Source: a virus
Virus record (IMG/VR): IMGVR_UViG_3300013010_000081
Location: 1-21,793 of that record
DNA length: 21,793 nt
Strand: one strand, 5' to 3'
Position 1 is the first letter of the stretch. Every line of letters starts with the position of its first letter. Under the pieces are notes generated by a model, which was not told the DNA's origin, searched no databases, and saw only the letters and a list, made by a program, of their open reading frames with translations. A program made the position numbers and the translations under genes. This document shows positions 1,890 through 6,149 of the stretch, one piece after another.

Positions 1890-2537
1890 ATGAAACACAA
1901 AAAGAACATATGGCCAGCGGACAAAGTAGAGCGAAGAAAAACAGACTCACTTGTTCCGTATGCAAGAAACGCACGAACGCACAGCGAGCAACAAGTGTCA
2001 CAAATAGCCGAAAGCATTAAAGAATGGGGATGGACTACCCCGGTATTGATTGATGAAGAAGGCGGTATCATTGCAGGTCACGGCAGAGTACTAGCAGCGC
2101 AACAACTAAGTTTTGATGAAATCCCTGCAATGGTAGCTACGGGATGGACTAAAGCGCAAAAACAAGCATACGTTCTTGCAGATAATCAAATACCTCAAAA
2201 CGCCGGATGGGATATGGATTTGCTGAAAATCGAAATAAAAGATTTATCCAGCAAAAAATTTGATTTGAACCTGATCGGTTTTAATGATGGCGATATTATG
2301 AATTTAGCTTTGCCTGTTGAAGAGGGTGAAACAAACGCATATGAAGAATGGGAGGGCATGCCAGATTTTGAACAAAATGATAAAACATCATTTCGCCACG
2401 TCATTGTGCATTTTGAAAACAATGAAGATTTAGCTAAATTTTTTAGCCTTATAGGGCAAAGCCATACCGATAAGACCAAATCTGTATGGTTTCCAGAGCA
2501 AGAAAATATGGACACAGAGTCAAAAAGATATGGGTGA
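1890..2537 (+). CDS. ParB/Srx-fold nuclease-like protein, DNA-modification type
   Basis: 215 residues; AGGG at 1882-1885 is the ribosome binding site. Residues about 14-105 form a ParB N-terminal domain: 'LVPYARNARTHSEQQV', 'ESIKEWGWTTPVLID', the GHGR motif at 63-66, and 'ADNQ' at 97-100. The segment 'NAGWDMDLLKIEIKDL…FDLNLIGF' (104-131) is what follows ParB domains fused to phage DNA methylases. Here no methylase domain (no DPPY or FxGxG) follows. Instead there is an acidic linker and a ~45-residue module, 'RHVIVHFENNEDLAKFFSLI' plus 'KTKSVWFPEQE' (169-205). No partition helix-turn-helix is seen, so plasmid or chromosome segregation is unlikely. Its 8-nt overlap with the glycosyltransferase gene argues for a shared job in DNA modification. 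Function is inferred. Confidence 0.8.
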   Translation: MKHKKNIWPADKVERRKTDSLVPYARNARTHSEQQVSQIAESIKEWGWTTPVLIDEEGGIIAGHGRVLAAQQLSFDEIPAMVATGWTKAQKQAYVLADNQIPQNAGWDMDLLKIEIKDLSSKKFDLNLIGFNDGDIMNLALPVEEGETNAYEEWEGMPDFEQNDKTSFRHVIVHFENNEDLAKFFSLIGQSHTDKTKSVWFPEQENMDTESKRYG

Positions 2538-3456
2538 TTTAAATCCTCAGTTTCCTTTGTACATTCCAAGCAAAGGACGATCTGAGTATATGATTACGTC
2601 AAAGTATTTAACTTATATGGGGGTTAAACATAATGTTGTAGTTGAACCAAGCCAAATGGATGACTACAGAAAAGCAATAAAATCAATGGATTTGCTTGCT
2701 ACTGCCGTTGAACTTGATTTGTCTTACAAAGAAAAATACGAGCTTTGCGACAATCATGGTTTAACAAAATCAACAGGGCCGGGGCCTGCTAGAAACTTTG
2801 CTTGGGATCATTCAAAGTCTAATGGTTACAATTGGCATTGGGTTATGGACGACAATATCCGCAGTTTTCGGCGTTTAAACAAAAATGAAAAAATAAAAGT
2901 CACTAACGGTTCTTTGTTTACAGCGATGGAGGATTTTTGTTTGCGATATGAAAACGTATCTATGGCTGGGCCAAATTATTATATGTTTGCACCTTCACGC
3001 GTTAAGCAACCGCCATTTATAACTAACACACGCATATACTCCTGTAATTTTATTAGGAACGATGTGCCTTTTCGATGGCGAGGCCGGTATAACGAAGACA
3101 CCATTATGTCAATAGATATGCTAAAAGCAAAATGGTGCACCGTCCAATTTAATGCATTCCTTCAAGAAAAAATGGCAACTCAAACTGTAAAGGGCGGAAA
3201 CACTGACGAACTTTATCAAGTAAATGATAAGCCAAAAAATGGCGAAAAGTATTCTCAAACTGGCACCATAGACAAATCCAAAATGATGATAACAACTCAC
3301 CCAGATATTTCTTCAATAGTTCACAGATTTGGTCGTGTTCATCACCATGTAAATTACAGTCAATTTAAAAAAAACAAACTTATTCGCAAAAAAGATGCCG
3401 AAGTTTCCAACGGCATCAATAATTATGGAATGCAAATAGTAGTTAAGAGTTCATAA
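2530..3456 (+). CDS. TET-associated-type glycosyltransferase (TAGT-like), putative DNA base glycosyltransferase
   Basis: 308 residues. The GT-A-like layout is visible: opening beta strand 'LYIPSKGR' (10-17), a turn 'GPGPARNFAWD' (83-93), the metal/nucleotide-sugar motif MDDN at 106-109 within 'HWVMDDNIRSF', and the acceptor-side 'GRYNEDTIMS' (185-194) with the acidic E189/D190 pair. A His-rich 'GRVHHHVNY' (268-276) lies near the C-terminus. This combination matches the phage glycosyltransferases described beside TET/JBP dioxygenases, which put sugars on hydroxymethylated pyrimidines in DNA. There is no signal peptide or membrane segment, consistent with a cytoplasmic DNA-modifying enzyme. The start overlaps the ParB-like gene by 8 nt and the 3' end overlaps a reverse-strand gene by 14 nt. 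Enzyme class is fairly sure; DNA as substrate rests on family and neighbour. A sugar transfer to protein or lipid is the alternative. Confidence 0.78.
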   Translation: MGDLNPQFPLYIPSKGRSEYMITSKYLTYMGVKHNVVVEPSQMDDYRKAIKSMDLLATAVELDLSYKEKYELCDNHGLTKSTGPGPARNFAWDHSKSNGYNWHWVMDDNIRSFRRLNKNEKIKVTNGSLFTAMEDFCLRYENVSMAGPNYYMFAPSRVKQPPFITNTRIYSCNFIRNDVPFRWRGRYNEDTIMSIDMLKAKWCTVQFNAFLQEKMATQTVKGGNTDELYQVNDKPKNGEKYSQTGTIDKSKMMITTHPDISSIVHRFGRVHHHVNYSQFKKNKLIRKKDAEVSNGINNYGMQIVVKSS

Positions 3457-3655
3457 TATGTACCGCGTGATCATTTTCTCCAACTGCGTAGATCATAGTT
3501 CGGTTATCGCCATAGGAAAGGTTAGCGTACCGAATAGCTTGCGCCAAAGTTTTGAATTCTTTTCTGTCAAACTGTCCTCGCCCTTTAAAACGCACTGCTG
3601 TAAACAAATGAGCCGTTTTAACAACGTGGTCGTGAAATTCTTGAAGCGTTTGCAT
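3443..3655 (-). CDS. small hypothetical phage protein (reverse strand)
   Basis: 70 residues, starting MQTLQEFHDHVVKTAHLF, with 'FKTLAQAIRYANLSYGDNR' and 'MIYAVGENDHAVHI' near the end. AAAAGGAA lies a few bases before the start on the reverse strand, and its ATG follows 3 nt after the stop of the upstream reverse gene, so the two are probably co-translated. The sequence has normal amino-acid variety, whereas the opposite-strand frame is Cys/Phe-rich and shadow-like. It resembles short phage proteins that cannot be named. Its last 14 nt overlap the end of the glycosyltransferase gene in convergent orientation. Confidence 0.72.
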   Translation of the reverse strand: MQTLQEFHDHVVKTAHLFTAVRFKGRGQFDRKEFKTLAQAIRYANLSYGDNRTMIYAVGENDHAVHIMNS

Positions 3656-3968: not shown

Positions 3969-4331
3969 ATGGAACAAAAGAAAAAACGAGGTCGCCCACC
4001 GTTTAAGCCAACGGATGACGAGCGCAAGCAGGTCGGTCAGATGGTGGCTGTCGGCATACCGCAAGAGCAGATTGCAATGGTGATCCGCGACGGAATTGAC
4101 GCTGACACGCTCGCCAAGCATTTCAAGAAAGAGATACGCGAAAGCAAGATACTGGCAAACGCCAAGGTTGGCGGCACGTTGTTTAACAAGATTATGAACG
4201 GCGATACGTCAGCAGCTATCTTCTGGGCCAAGACGCAGATGGGATGGAAAGAAAAAAGCGAGATTGAGCATAGCGGCAACGTAAGTATGATTGAGAGAGT
4301 CATTGTCGATACTCCAGATACCAACAGCTAG
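3969..4331 (+). CDS. terS: terminase small subunit
   Basis: 120 residues. A basic RGRPPFKP N-terminus (AT-hook-like) is followed by a helix-turn-helix region: 'DERKQVGQMVAVGIPQEQIAMVI', then 'IDADTLAKHFKKEI'. The second half has 'AKVGGTLFNKIMNGDTSAAIFWAKTQMGWKEK', the pattern of small terminase/HTH packaging proteins in which a DNA-binding domain precedes an oligomerisation segment. It would recognise the packaging site and recruit the large subunit. The call is strongly supported by the large terminase gene that overlaps its 3' end by 41 nt. The upstream ribosome binding site is weak. Confidence 0.85.
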   Translation: MEQKKKRGRPPFKPTDDERKQVGQMVAVGIPQEQIAMVIRDGIDADTLAKHFKKEIRESKILANAKVGGTLFNKIMNGDTSAAIFWAKTQMGWKEKSEIEHSGNVSMIERVIVDTPDTNS

Positions 4332-5604
4332 GGTCTTCAAACCATTATTAGTGCCGTCACGCTATAAGGGTGCGTATGGTGGGCGTGGGTCAGCCAAGTC
4401 GCATTTCTTTGCAGACCTTGCTATTGATGACCTTGTTCAAAACCCAATGCACCGTGGCGTTTGCGTCCGTGAAATTCAAAAGTCGCTGAAAGAAAGCGCA
4501 AAGCGTTTGCTTGAGGATAAAATACAAACGCACAGGGTTGGGCATCTTTTTAACATTATGCATGACCGCATCGAAACGACTCAGGGCGGCGTTATCATCT
4601 TCCAAGGGATGCAAGACCACACAGCAGAATCAATCAAGTCGCTCGAAGGTTTTGACTGGGCGTGGTGCGAAGAAGCACAGACGATGACAAGCAAAAGCCT
4701 TGAGCTACTAAGACCAACCATTCGTAAGCCGGGGTCTGAGTTGTGGTTTAGCTGGAACCCGCGCCTCGCTTCAGACGCGGTTGACAAATTCTTTAGAAGT
4801 GATTCGCCGCCACCGGGCGCTGTATGTATTAGAGCAAATTACAGCGACAATCCGTGGTTTCCAAAAGAACTAAAGGCAGAGCTTGTTTTTGACAAAGAGC
4901 ATCGCCCAGACCGCTATGGTCACGTTTGGCTAGGCGAGTATGAACCACAAGCTGTTGGTGCTATCTGGACCATGCGCGACATTGACGAATACCGGGTACA
5001 GGAACAGCCTAACGATCTAAAGCGTATTGTGATCGGCGTTGACCCTGCAATCTCAAGCAAAGAGAACGCTGATGAGCACGGCATTGTGGCTTGTGGCGTT
5101 GCGGAGAGCGGACACGGGTATGTCTTAGAAGATGCCAGCACAAAAGGTACACCAGAGAAATGGGGCCGCAGAGCTATTGCCTTGTTTGATTATCATCAGG
5201 CTGACGCTATCGTTATCGAAAAGAACCAAGGCGGTGAAATGTGCAAGCACGTCATAGACAGCATTCGTCCCGGCGTTCCTGTGGTGCTTGTCCATGCGTC
5301 ACGAGGCAAGCACGTTAGGGCAGAGCCTGTAAGTGCGCTATATGCTTTAGGACGCATCCACCACGTTAAAAACAGCCCAGAGCTTGAAGCGCAGATGTGT
5401 CAGGTAACCGCGCAAGGGTACGAAGGCGAAGGCTCACCGGATCGTGTTGACGCACTGGTCTGGGCAATGACTGAGTTGTTCCCTGACATCAAAGGACGCC
5501 AGAACGTAACTAATCGACAATTTGTTGCGGAAATGGAGTATGATGTCAGCGGCTATGAAACAAACACATATCGTGGGCGGCAAGCCGTAGCTATTGGAGA
5601 CTAA
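4291..5604 (+). CDS. terL: terminase large subunit (PBSX/Terminase_3 type)
   Basis: 437 residues, ATP-driven DNA-packaging motor with nuclease. The ATPase domain shows Walker A GGRGSAKS (30-37) and Walker B 'FDWAWCEEA' (121-129), then 'WFSWNPR' (152-158), the coupling region typical of PBSX-type TerL. The RNase H-like nuclease follows with 'VIGVDPA' (D251), 'VIEKNQGG' (E310) and 'SPDRVDALVWAM' (D384, D387), so both activities appear intact. The start is uncertain: the frame opens at TTG 4291, and TTG 4303 would give a protein starting close to the usual LQIPTARVFKPLL. No ATG is available before Walker A. The overlap with terS suggests coupled translation. Confidence 0.93.
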   Translation: MRESLSILQIPTARVFKPLLVPSRYKGAYGGRGSAKSHFFADLAIDDLVQNPMHRGVCVREIQKSLKESAKRLLEDKIQTHRVGHLFNIMHDRIETTQGGVIIFQGMQDHTAESIKSLEGFDWAWCEEAQTMTSKSLELLRPTIRKPGSELWFSWNPRLASDAVDKFFRSDSPPPGAVCIRANYSDNPWFPKELKAELVFDKEHRPDRYGHVWLGEYEPQAVGAIWTMRDIDEYRVQEQPNDLKRIVIGVDPAISSKENADEHGIVACGVAESGHGYVLEDASTKGTPEKWGRRAIALFDYHQADAIVIEKNQGGEMCKHVIDSIRPGVPVVLVHASRGKHVRAEPVSALYALGRIHHVKNSPELEAQMCQVTAQGYEGEGSPDRVDALVWAMTELFPDIKGRQNVTNRQFVAEMEYDVSGYETNTYRGRQAVAIGD

Positions 5605-5607
5605 ATC

Positions 5608-5697
5608 ATGAGCGCAAACGTTAAGACTTTGTTAACTGAGGGATATAGCAAGAAAAAGCCTATGTCCAAGACTAAGAAGAAAAAGATTAAAAAATGA
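5608..5697 (+). CDS. 29-residue lysine-rich peptide
   Basis: This very short ORF, MSANVKTLLTEGYSKKKPM then SKTKKKKIKK, has a good ribosome binding site (GGAG 5596-5599, 8 nt upstream) and ends in an ATGA that is also the start of the acetyltransferase gene. It sits 3 nt after the terminase stop. Its placement and Shine-Dalgarno sequence argue that it is translated. About 40 percent of residues are lysine, nearly all in the C-terminal half. Function is unknown. It could bind DNA, or serve mainly to couple translation to the next gene. Confidence 0.6.
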   Translation: MSANVKTLLTEGYSKKKPMSKTKKKKIKK

Positions 5698-6149
5698 TCC
5701 GCAGCATGGTAGCGAGTGACATCCCTGTAATGATTGCACTAGGCGCAGAGATGCACCGGGAAAGCCGTTACGCCAGCTTAGACTTTGATACAAGCCGCCT
5801 ATGGCAACTAGGTGAGCAAATACTTGCAGCGCCCGATAGCTACCTTGCTGTCGTCTACGAAAAGGATGACGAGATTGTTGGGTTTTGCGTTGGGTACGTT
5901 GCGCCACACTTCTTCGGCAATGATCTAACCAGCGGTGATTTTGCAATTTACGTTTTGCCGGAGCATCGCAAGGGCATGGTCGGCGTAAAGCTAATAAAGA
6001 CATATGACGATTGGTGTGTTAAAAAGGGCGTTAAGGAACCAATGCTAGGCGTGTCGGCTGGCATTACCCCAGAGCGCATTGGCAAGCTATACAAGCGCAT
6101 GGGGTACACCGAAACATACATGATCTATAAGAAACCGGAGCAAAATTAA
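5694..6149 (+). CDS. GNAT-family N-acetyltransferase
   Basis: 151 residues, about the standard GNAT length. The opening 'MIRSMVASDIPVMIALGAEM' is the usual first strand and helix. The core strands 'YLAVVYEKDDEIVGFCVGYV' and 'GDFAIYVLPEHRKGMVGVKL' carry the acetyl-CoA pyrophosphate loop RKGMVG (92-97), and the end has 'LYKRMGYTETYMIYKK', the conserved C-terminal GNAT strand. It would transfer an acetyl group from acetyl-CoA to an amine; the substrate is unknown. GNAT genes between terminase and portal are frequent in aquatic podoviruses. The start overlaps the 29-residue peptide by 4 nt (ATGA), and the stop shares one base with the next ATG. Confidence 0.85.
   Translation: MIRSMVASDIPVMIALGAEMHRESRYASLDFDTSRLWQLGEQILAAPDSYLAVVYEKDDEIVGFCVGYVAPHFFGNDLTSGDFAIYVLPEHRKGMVGVKLIKTYDDWCVKKGVKEPMLGVSAGITPERIGKLYKRMGYTETYMIYKKPEQN

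Follow-up and report, generated by a model that had tools for sequence, protein, structure and literature searches.

The two overlapping genes examined here probably form a cassette in which a ParB-like protein (P0001) guides the glycosylation of phage DNA by a TET-associated glycosyltransferase (TAGT; P0002). They lie in a 21.8-kb fragment of a small tailed phage from an IMG/VR record (the whole stretch analysed, hereafter the window), in which replication genes are followed by the ParB/TAGT pair and then by the terminase, portal, scaffold and capsid genes, the last three being assigned by ORF reading and gene order (Table 1). In the proposed mechanism, the ParB-like protein would serve as a constant platform, encoded just before the terminase genes, and would dock the TAGT through its C-terminal adaptor; the TAGT would move a sugar or a similar group from an NDP-activated donor to phage DNA before packaging, and the DNA sugar would probably shield the phage from nucleases of the host. 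Other phages join this platform to a DNA methylase or place it beside Mom. Physical contact between the two proteins, DNA as the substrate, a targeting role for the ParB-like protein and protection of the phage are all parts of this picture that we infer.

Table 1. Features of the gene pair and the adjoining terminase genes (positions in the window)
Feature	Position	Strand	Basis and remarks
ParB-like protein P0001, 215 aa	1890..2537	+	PF02195, PHROG 620, AlphaFold, Foldseek
ParB N-terminal core, then ParB-methylase-type helices	1911..2300	+	HMM from 33 relatives
GHGR motif, residues 63-66	2076..2087	+	Alignment, sequence; replaces the GERR CTPase motif of partition ParB
C-terminal TAGT adaptor domain (EW.GMP.F ... 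KTKS.W.P)	2343..2531	+	Adaptor HMM
8-nt gene overlap ATGGGTGA, P0001/P0002	2530..2537	+	Sequence
TAGT-family GT-A glycosyltransferase P0002, 308 aa	2530..3456	+	PF20691, AlphaFold, PDB GT-A matches
DDN, putative metal/nucleotide-sugar site of TAGT	2848..2856	+	Invariant, 33 sequences
NED motif of TAGT	3091..3099	+	Invariant, 33 sequences
TQTVKGGNT motif of TAGT	3178..3204	+	Form common to type-2 TAGTs
Terminase small subunit	3969..4331	+	PHROG 309; marks the terminase-proximal slot
Terminase large subunit	4291..5604	+	PF04466 and PF17289

Two further genes were observed nearby. A small ORF on the minus strand (3443-3655) lies between the TAGT and terminase genes and by eye resembles an equally placed small gene (GDNRTM.YAV) in about 20 related contigs, and a GNAT acetyltransferase (PF00583) is encoded at 5694-6149, downstream of the large terminase gene.

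The ParB-like protein and the glycosyltransferase

The two plus-strand ORFs and their exact 8-nt overlap, as described in an earlier sequence-only reading, were confirmed. P0002 matched the Pfam family PF20691 (TAGT) with 141.3 bits (hmmscan, E 5e-41, cut-off 27.5), which bears out the TAGT-type assignment of that reading. The MDDN (residues 106-109) and NED (residues 188-190) motifs, likewise pointed out in that reading, are present and invariant in 33 relatives, among which the TQ..GG.T motif and HH of TAGT are invariant or nearly so. The AlphaFold model adopts a GT-A fold and is confident (pLDDT 88.5, pTM 0.88). Its distant PDB matches were GnT-I, heparosan synthase and the ColGalT complex, and the targets of these nearest solved folds are proteins or polysaccharides; no sequence relatives of TAGT were found in the PDB. 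These data indicate that P0002 is a TAGT-family GT-A glycosyltransferase with intact GT-A motifs. Because PF20691 as used now also includes members without TET, a TAGT that lacks TET linkage still falls in the family. The TAGTs of T2 and T6 reportedly attach a second glucose unit to alpha-glucosyl-hydroxymethylcytosine in DNA (PMC13216743, PMC13390438), and a 2026 study of the T4 glucosyltransferases described solitary TAGTs, without alpha- or beta-GT, in 288 of 753 phage genomes as potentially novel transferases (PMC13216743).

P0001 gave a borderline match to ParB_N, scoring 27.1 bits in the DNA search (above the cut-off of 26.3) and 25.4 bits in hmmscan (just under it). Its matches to PHROG 620 (5e-54) and to PHROG 498, which comprises ParB-DNA methylase fusions (1e-46), were strong. 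The stretch 'AGWDMDLL...FDLNLIGF' is common to methylase-fused ParB domains, e.g. that of Vibrio phage 1.213.O; no methylase domain was found after the ParB region of P0001, which instead continues into a different C-terminal domain of about 65 residues. The ParB domain with GHGR and this stretch but no methylase, as the sequence-only reading had it, was confirmed. The AlphaFold model of P0001 (pLDDT 85) matched the CTP-binding ParB 7bnk with a Foldseek E-value of 6.5e-8. CTP-binding ParB/Noc proteins (E ~1e-7) fitted far better than sulfiredoxin or the free-serine kinase SerK (E ~6e-3), so the analogy to SerK drawn earlier is weak, and a SerK-type ParB/Srx kinase was rejected on this poor structural rank. 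At the position of the GERR motif, the alignment shows GNGT, GHTR or GEGR in relatives and GHGR in P0001 itself, and P0001 yielded neither an HTH nor any other DNA-binding module, Pfam matching ParB_N only. Because GHGR stands in place of GERR and no HTH domain was found, P0001 has a predicted ParB fold but is probably not a partition protein, and this candidate role was rejected.

Conservation of the pair and a shared adaptor domain

A search of viral contigs with the window TAGT confirmed at least 597 related stretches, and pairing was counted in the best 80 of these together with 24 bacterial genome loci. In this survey of co-occurrence, a step proposed in the earlier reading, 80 of the 86 type-1 TAGT loci that have at least 900 nt upstream proved to have a ParB-like gene no more than 2 kb before the TAGT. 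The adaptor is present in five of the six loci without ParB and missing, like ParB, from the sixth (L115). ParB is the most constant TAGT neighbour, every other neighbour in the loci compared being less constant, and the ParB-TAGT adjacency is far above chance. The pair is found in Xenophilus, Pantoea/Erwinia, Chryseobacterium and Rhodovulum as well as in metagenome-assembled genomes labelled Bartonella, Verrucomicrobia and others, with hosts in several phyla, and the terminases beside it fall into several separate clusters. The exact 8-nt overlap also occurs in the ParB-Mom pair of Psychrobacter phage Y8A and in the ParB-TAGT-2 pair of E. coli phage 683R6. Variants were seen as well: one locus (L095, 8420-10897) has a ParB-adaptor gene followed by two tandem TAGT copies, and in Pantoea/Erwinia prophages (L099, L100 and L081) genes for a VASGPSL-type protein, a GT9-like protein and a methyltransferase precede the ParB-TAGT pair.

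The adaptor comprises the last ~65 residues of P0001 (EW.GMP.F...KTKS.W.P), a region without a Pfam match; modelled on its own by AlphaFold, it has low confidence (pTM 0.60). With an HMM built from the ParB tails, this domain was also detected N-terminally in TAGTs from Aeromonas phage Aeh1 (6.6e-17), Tenacibaculum phage PTm1 and Vibrio phages Kuja, 1.124.O and 1.076.O, none of which has a ParB gene directly upstream of the fused TAGT. The domain also forms a stand-alone protein (Aeh1p092), and a stand-alone adaptor gene directly precedes the TAGT gene in a Rhodovulum locus (L104) and in L108. The adaptor therefore occurs with TAGT in three arrangements, namely on ParB, on TAGT and alone, and ParB and TAGT were joined in a single polypeptide in 0 of 98 adaptor-TAGT junctions. 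In Kuja (L082, 3596-6284), two adaptor-TAGT genes stand in tandem. Since the adaptor is found both in trans and in cis, an interaction between ParB and TAGT can be inferred from gene fusion (Rosetta-stone evidence). Together with the conserved adjacency, this sequence-based evidence supports the view that the two proteins work together as a functional pair, in keeping with the earlier reading, and makes ParB plus adaptor a likely partner for many solitary TAGTs. The TAGT literature found here does not mention ParB, the earliest TAGT and phage-TET reports lying outside the search; no paper containing both 'TET-associated glycosyltransferase' and 'ParB' was found, which does not prove priority.

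A type-2 form of the pair is covered to at least 80% in 887 of 5,426 complete E. coli genomes, where it is annotated as ynaK plus a 'GREB1-related protein', the PGAP name for the TAGT homologue. Rac-type prophages harbour this pair, examples being L205 (6001-7717) and ON470595 (35487-37203). In some of the genomes with the pair, L205 included, ynaK is annotated as incomplete, and K-12 has a truncated ynaK remnant only. The E. coli prophage version makes a laboratory test simple.

The terminase-proximal slot and the likely substrate

A ParB-seeded scan was evaluated in 74 loci with 1.5 kb or more downstream; nearly all of these lie upstream of the terminase, most of them by a few genes. The ParB-like gene was accompanied by an N6/N4 DNA methylase in 37 loci (36 of them fused), Mom in eight, a C5 methylase in four, a type-2 TAGT in seven and a PAPS reductase in one, and nine loci received no assignment; a type-1 TAGT with adaptor followed in the remaining eight, a biased frequency because the scan was seeded partly with the adaptor pattern. 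Pfam matches of the partners were clear for Mom (1e-42 to 1e-55), the C5 methylases (2e-50 or better) and the type-2 TAGTs (7e-30 to 3e-36). Mom stands directly after the same ParB type in L131, L139, L172, L183, L186, L190 and Y8A (L202, 2989-4246), and no published description of a ParB-Mom pair was found. The tree of the ParB core, which rests on a short alignment, calls for a minimum of 39 changes of partner label and a minimum of 16 changes for TAGT-1; of these TAGT-1 changes, just 3 are forced by branches with strong support. The terminase-proximal ParB site is best read as a putative DNA-modification slot, and the exchange of TAGT with DNA methylases and Mom in this slot is the main reason to consider DNA as the substrate; it also makes plausible the earlier suggestion that the pair acts on DNA. 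Other occupants of the slot were observed. In Pseudoalteromonas phage SL25 (L204, 2980-4583) and in L188 (53-1689), the ParB-like gene is followed, directly before the terminase, by a gene for an ABC-type ATPase protein, which is possibly a further modifying enzyme; the SL25 protein also has a GNAT acetyltransferase domain. The protein after ParB in L161 (1422-2258) has glycosyltransferase-like features (DDF) and no Pfam or PHROG match, and represents a possible third enzyme type.

TET (PF12851, PF20515) and thymidylate synthase/hydroxymethylase (PF00303) were both absent from 21 related contigs of 29-69 kb and from two 47-kb cultured phages. TET was also absent from four complete bacterial genomes carrying the cassette; three of these have one full-length thymidylate-synthase match each, as expected for a host gene, and Rhodovulum has none. 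The positive controls worked, with the TET-TAGT phage P12024L scoring 2.8e-29. A TET/JBP or hydroxymethylase step, which the sequence-only reading had assumed on the basis of known TAGTs, is not supported by these searches for window-type TAGTs, and a TET/JBP or thymidylate-synthase partner, not found in the small phages, was rejected. No known maker of a pyrimidine hydroxyl acceptor was found in these phages or hosts, and we can name no precedent for the chemistry. As for the donor, in about 30 loci (e.g. L037:5997-6428) some 3 nt separate the cassette from a cytidylyltransferase-like gene (PF01467), whose nearest curated models are glycerol-3-phosphate cytidylyltransferase and heptose-1-phosphate adenylyltransferase. 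Because this gene stands beside many copies of the cassette, a phage-supplied donor is a candidate, and the models hint that it may be CDP- or ADP-activated, e.g. CDP-glycerol or NDP-heptose. We tentatively consider it possible that the cassette puts a sugar or polyol on DNA without a hydroxymethyl base, either on a canonical base directly or on an acceptor that the ParB-like protein helps to create.

Counting against ParB-guided DNA glycosylation are the lack of a known pyrimidine-hydroxyl maker in the phages and hosts examined, the ParB-like protein having no detected DNA-binding module and a GHGR that lacks some CTPase-motif residues, the fact that the solved folds nearest to TAGT act on proteins or polysaccharides, and a report, cited in PMC10908778, that the TAGT-related eukaryotic protein GREB1 O-GlcNAcylates the estrogen receptor. 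The main rival, which we regard as unlikely, makes protein the target of glycosylation: RNA polymerase of the host, a defence or virion protein, or the ParB-like protein, which the adaptor or the ParB domain would recognise in place of DNA. The GREB1 report, the PGAP name of the E. coli homologue, the protein glycosyltransferases ColGalT and GnT-I among the nearest folds and the failure to find a DNA hydroxyl-making enzyme in related phages and host genomes would all fit such a target; however, in relatives DNA methylases and Mom occur with this ParB platform, at the same location and with a comparable gene overlap, and the T6 TAGT acts on DNA.

Conventional glycosylation that depends on TET or a hydroxymethylase, the acceptor maker being encoded elsewhere in the genome or belonging to another family, appears rather improbable. 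The window is a fragment, the distant TAGT of Nonlabens phage P12024L adjoins a TET gene, and Kuja, Aeh1 and PTm1, whose TAGTs are fused to the adaptor, have thymidylate-synthase homologues, all of which would suit this route; it is opposed by the absence of TET and thymidylate synthase from the contigs and cultured phages described above and by host genomes that lack TET and hold at most one thymidylate synthase. It is very improbable that the neighbours are unrelated, i.e. a ParB-like regulator or partition protein beside a glycosyltransferase for host surface polysaccharide, since the near-obligate pairing, the sharing of the adaptor, the TAGT family membership and the persistence of the pair across different terminases and host phyla outweigh the breadth of the ParB_N domain, the frequency of surface-modifying glycosyltransferases in phages and the GT9-like and methyltransferase genes that flank the pair in Pantoea/Erwinia prophages.

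If ParB-guided DNA glycosylation is correct and DNA is the target, the pair may reveal a modification route with an acceptor other than the known ones, as well as a general rule that the ParB-like proteins of phages carry interchangeable DNA-modifying enzymes and do not serve in partition. Should no hydroxymethyl base be involved, the DNA modification would belong to a new class that needs neither TET nor hydroxymethylase and already occurs, as the type-2 form, in about one sixth of complete E. coli genomes.

Comparison with known systems

The closest enzymatic counterparts are the TAGTs of PF20691, among them the T6 enzyme (beta-glucosyl-HMC-alpha-glucosyltransferase); P0002 shares the profile match, the GT-A fold and the DDN and NED motifs with this family. 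Unlike TET-linked TAGTs, the window-type relatives in the small phages examined have no TET or hydroxymethylase, and they have an obligate-looking ParB/adaptor partner. The N-terminal fold of P0001 resembles that of partition ParB/Noc proteins, which are CTPase clamps, but P0001 differs from them in having no GERR motif, no HTH found and a TAGT adaptor. Its ParB domain is homologous to that of the phage ParB-DNA methylase fusions of PHROG 498 and occupies the same site upstream of the terminase; in the window, however, an adaptor and a separate, overlapping glycosyltransferase gene take the place of the methylase. The E. coli Rac-type pair of ynaK and 'GREB1-related protein' likewise combines ParB and TAGT with an 8-nt overlap beside the terminase, whereas its ParB tail and its TAGT are of type 2. 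Mom acts on unmodified adenine. In relatives, Mom (PF25680), like the TAGT, comes after a ParB gene of this type, with the 8-nt overlap in phage Y8A. The TAGT shares its genomic slot with known DNA modifiers; its enzyme fold and chemistry are different from those of Mom.
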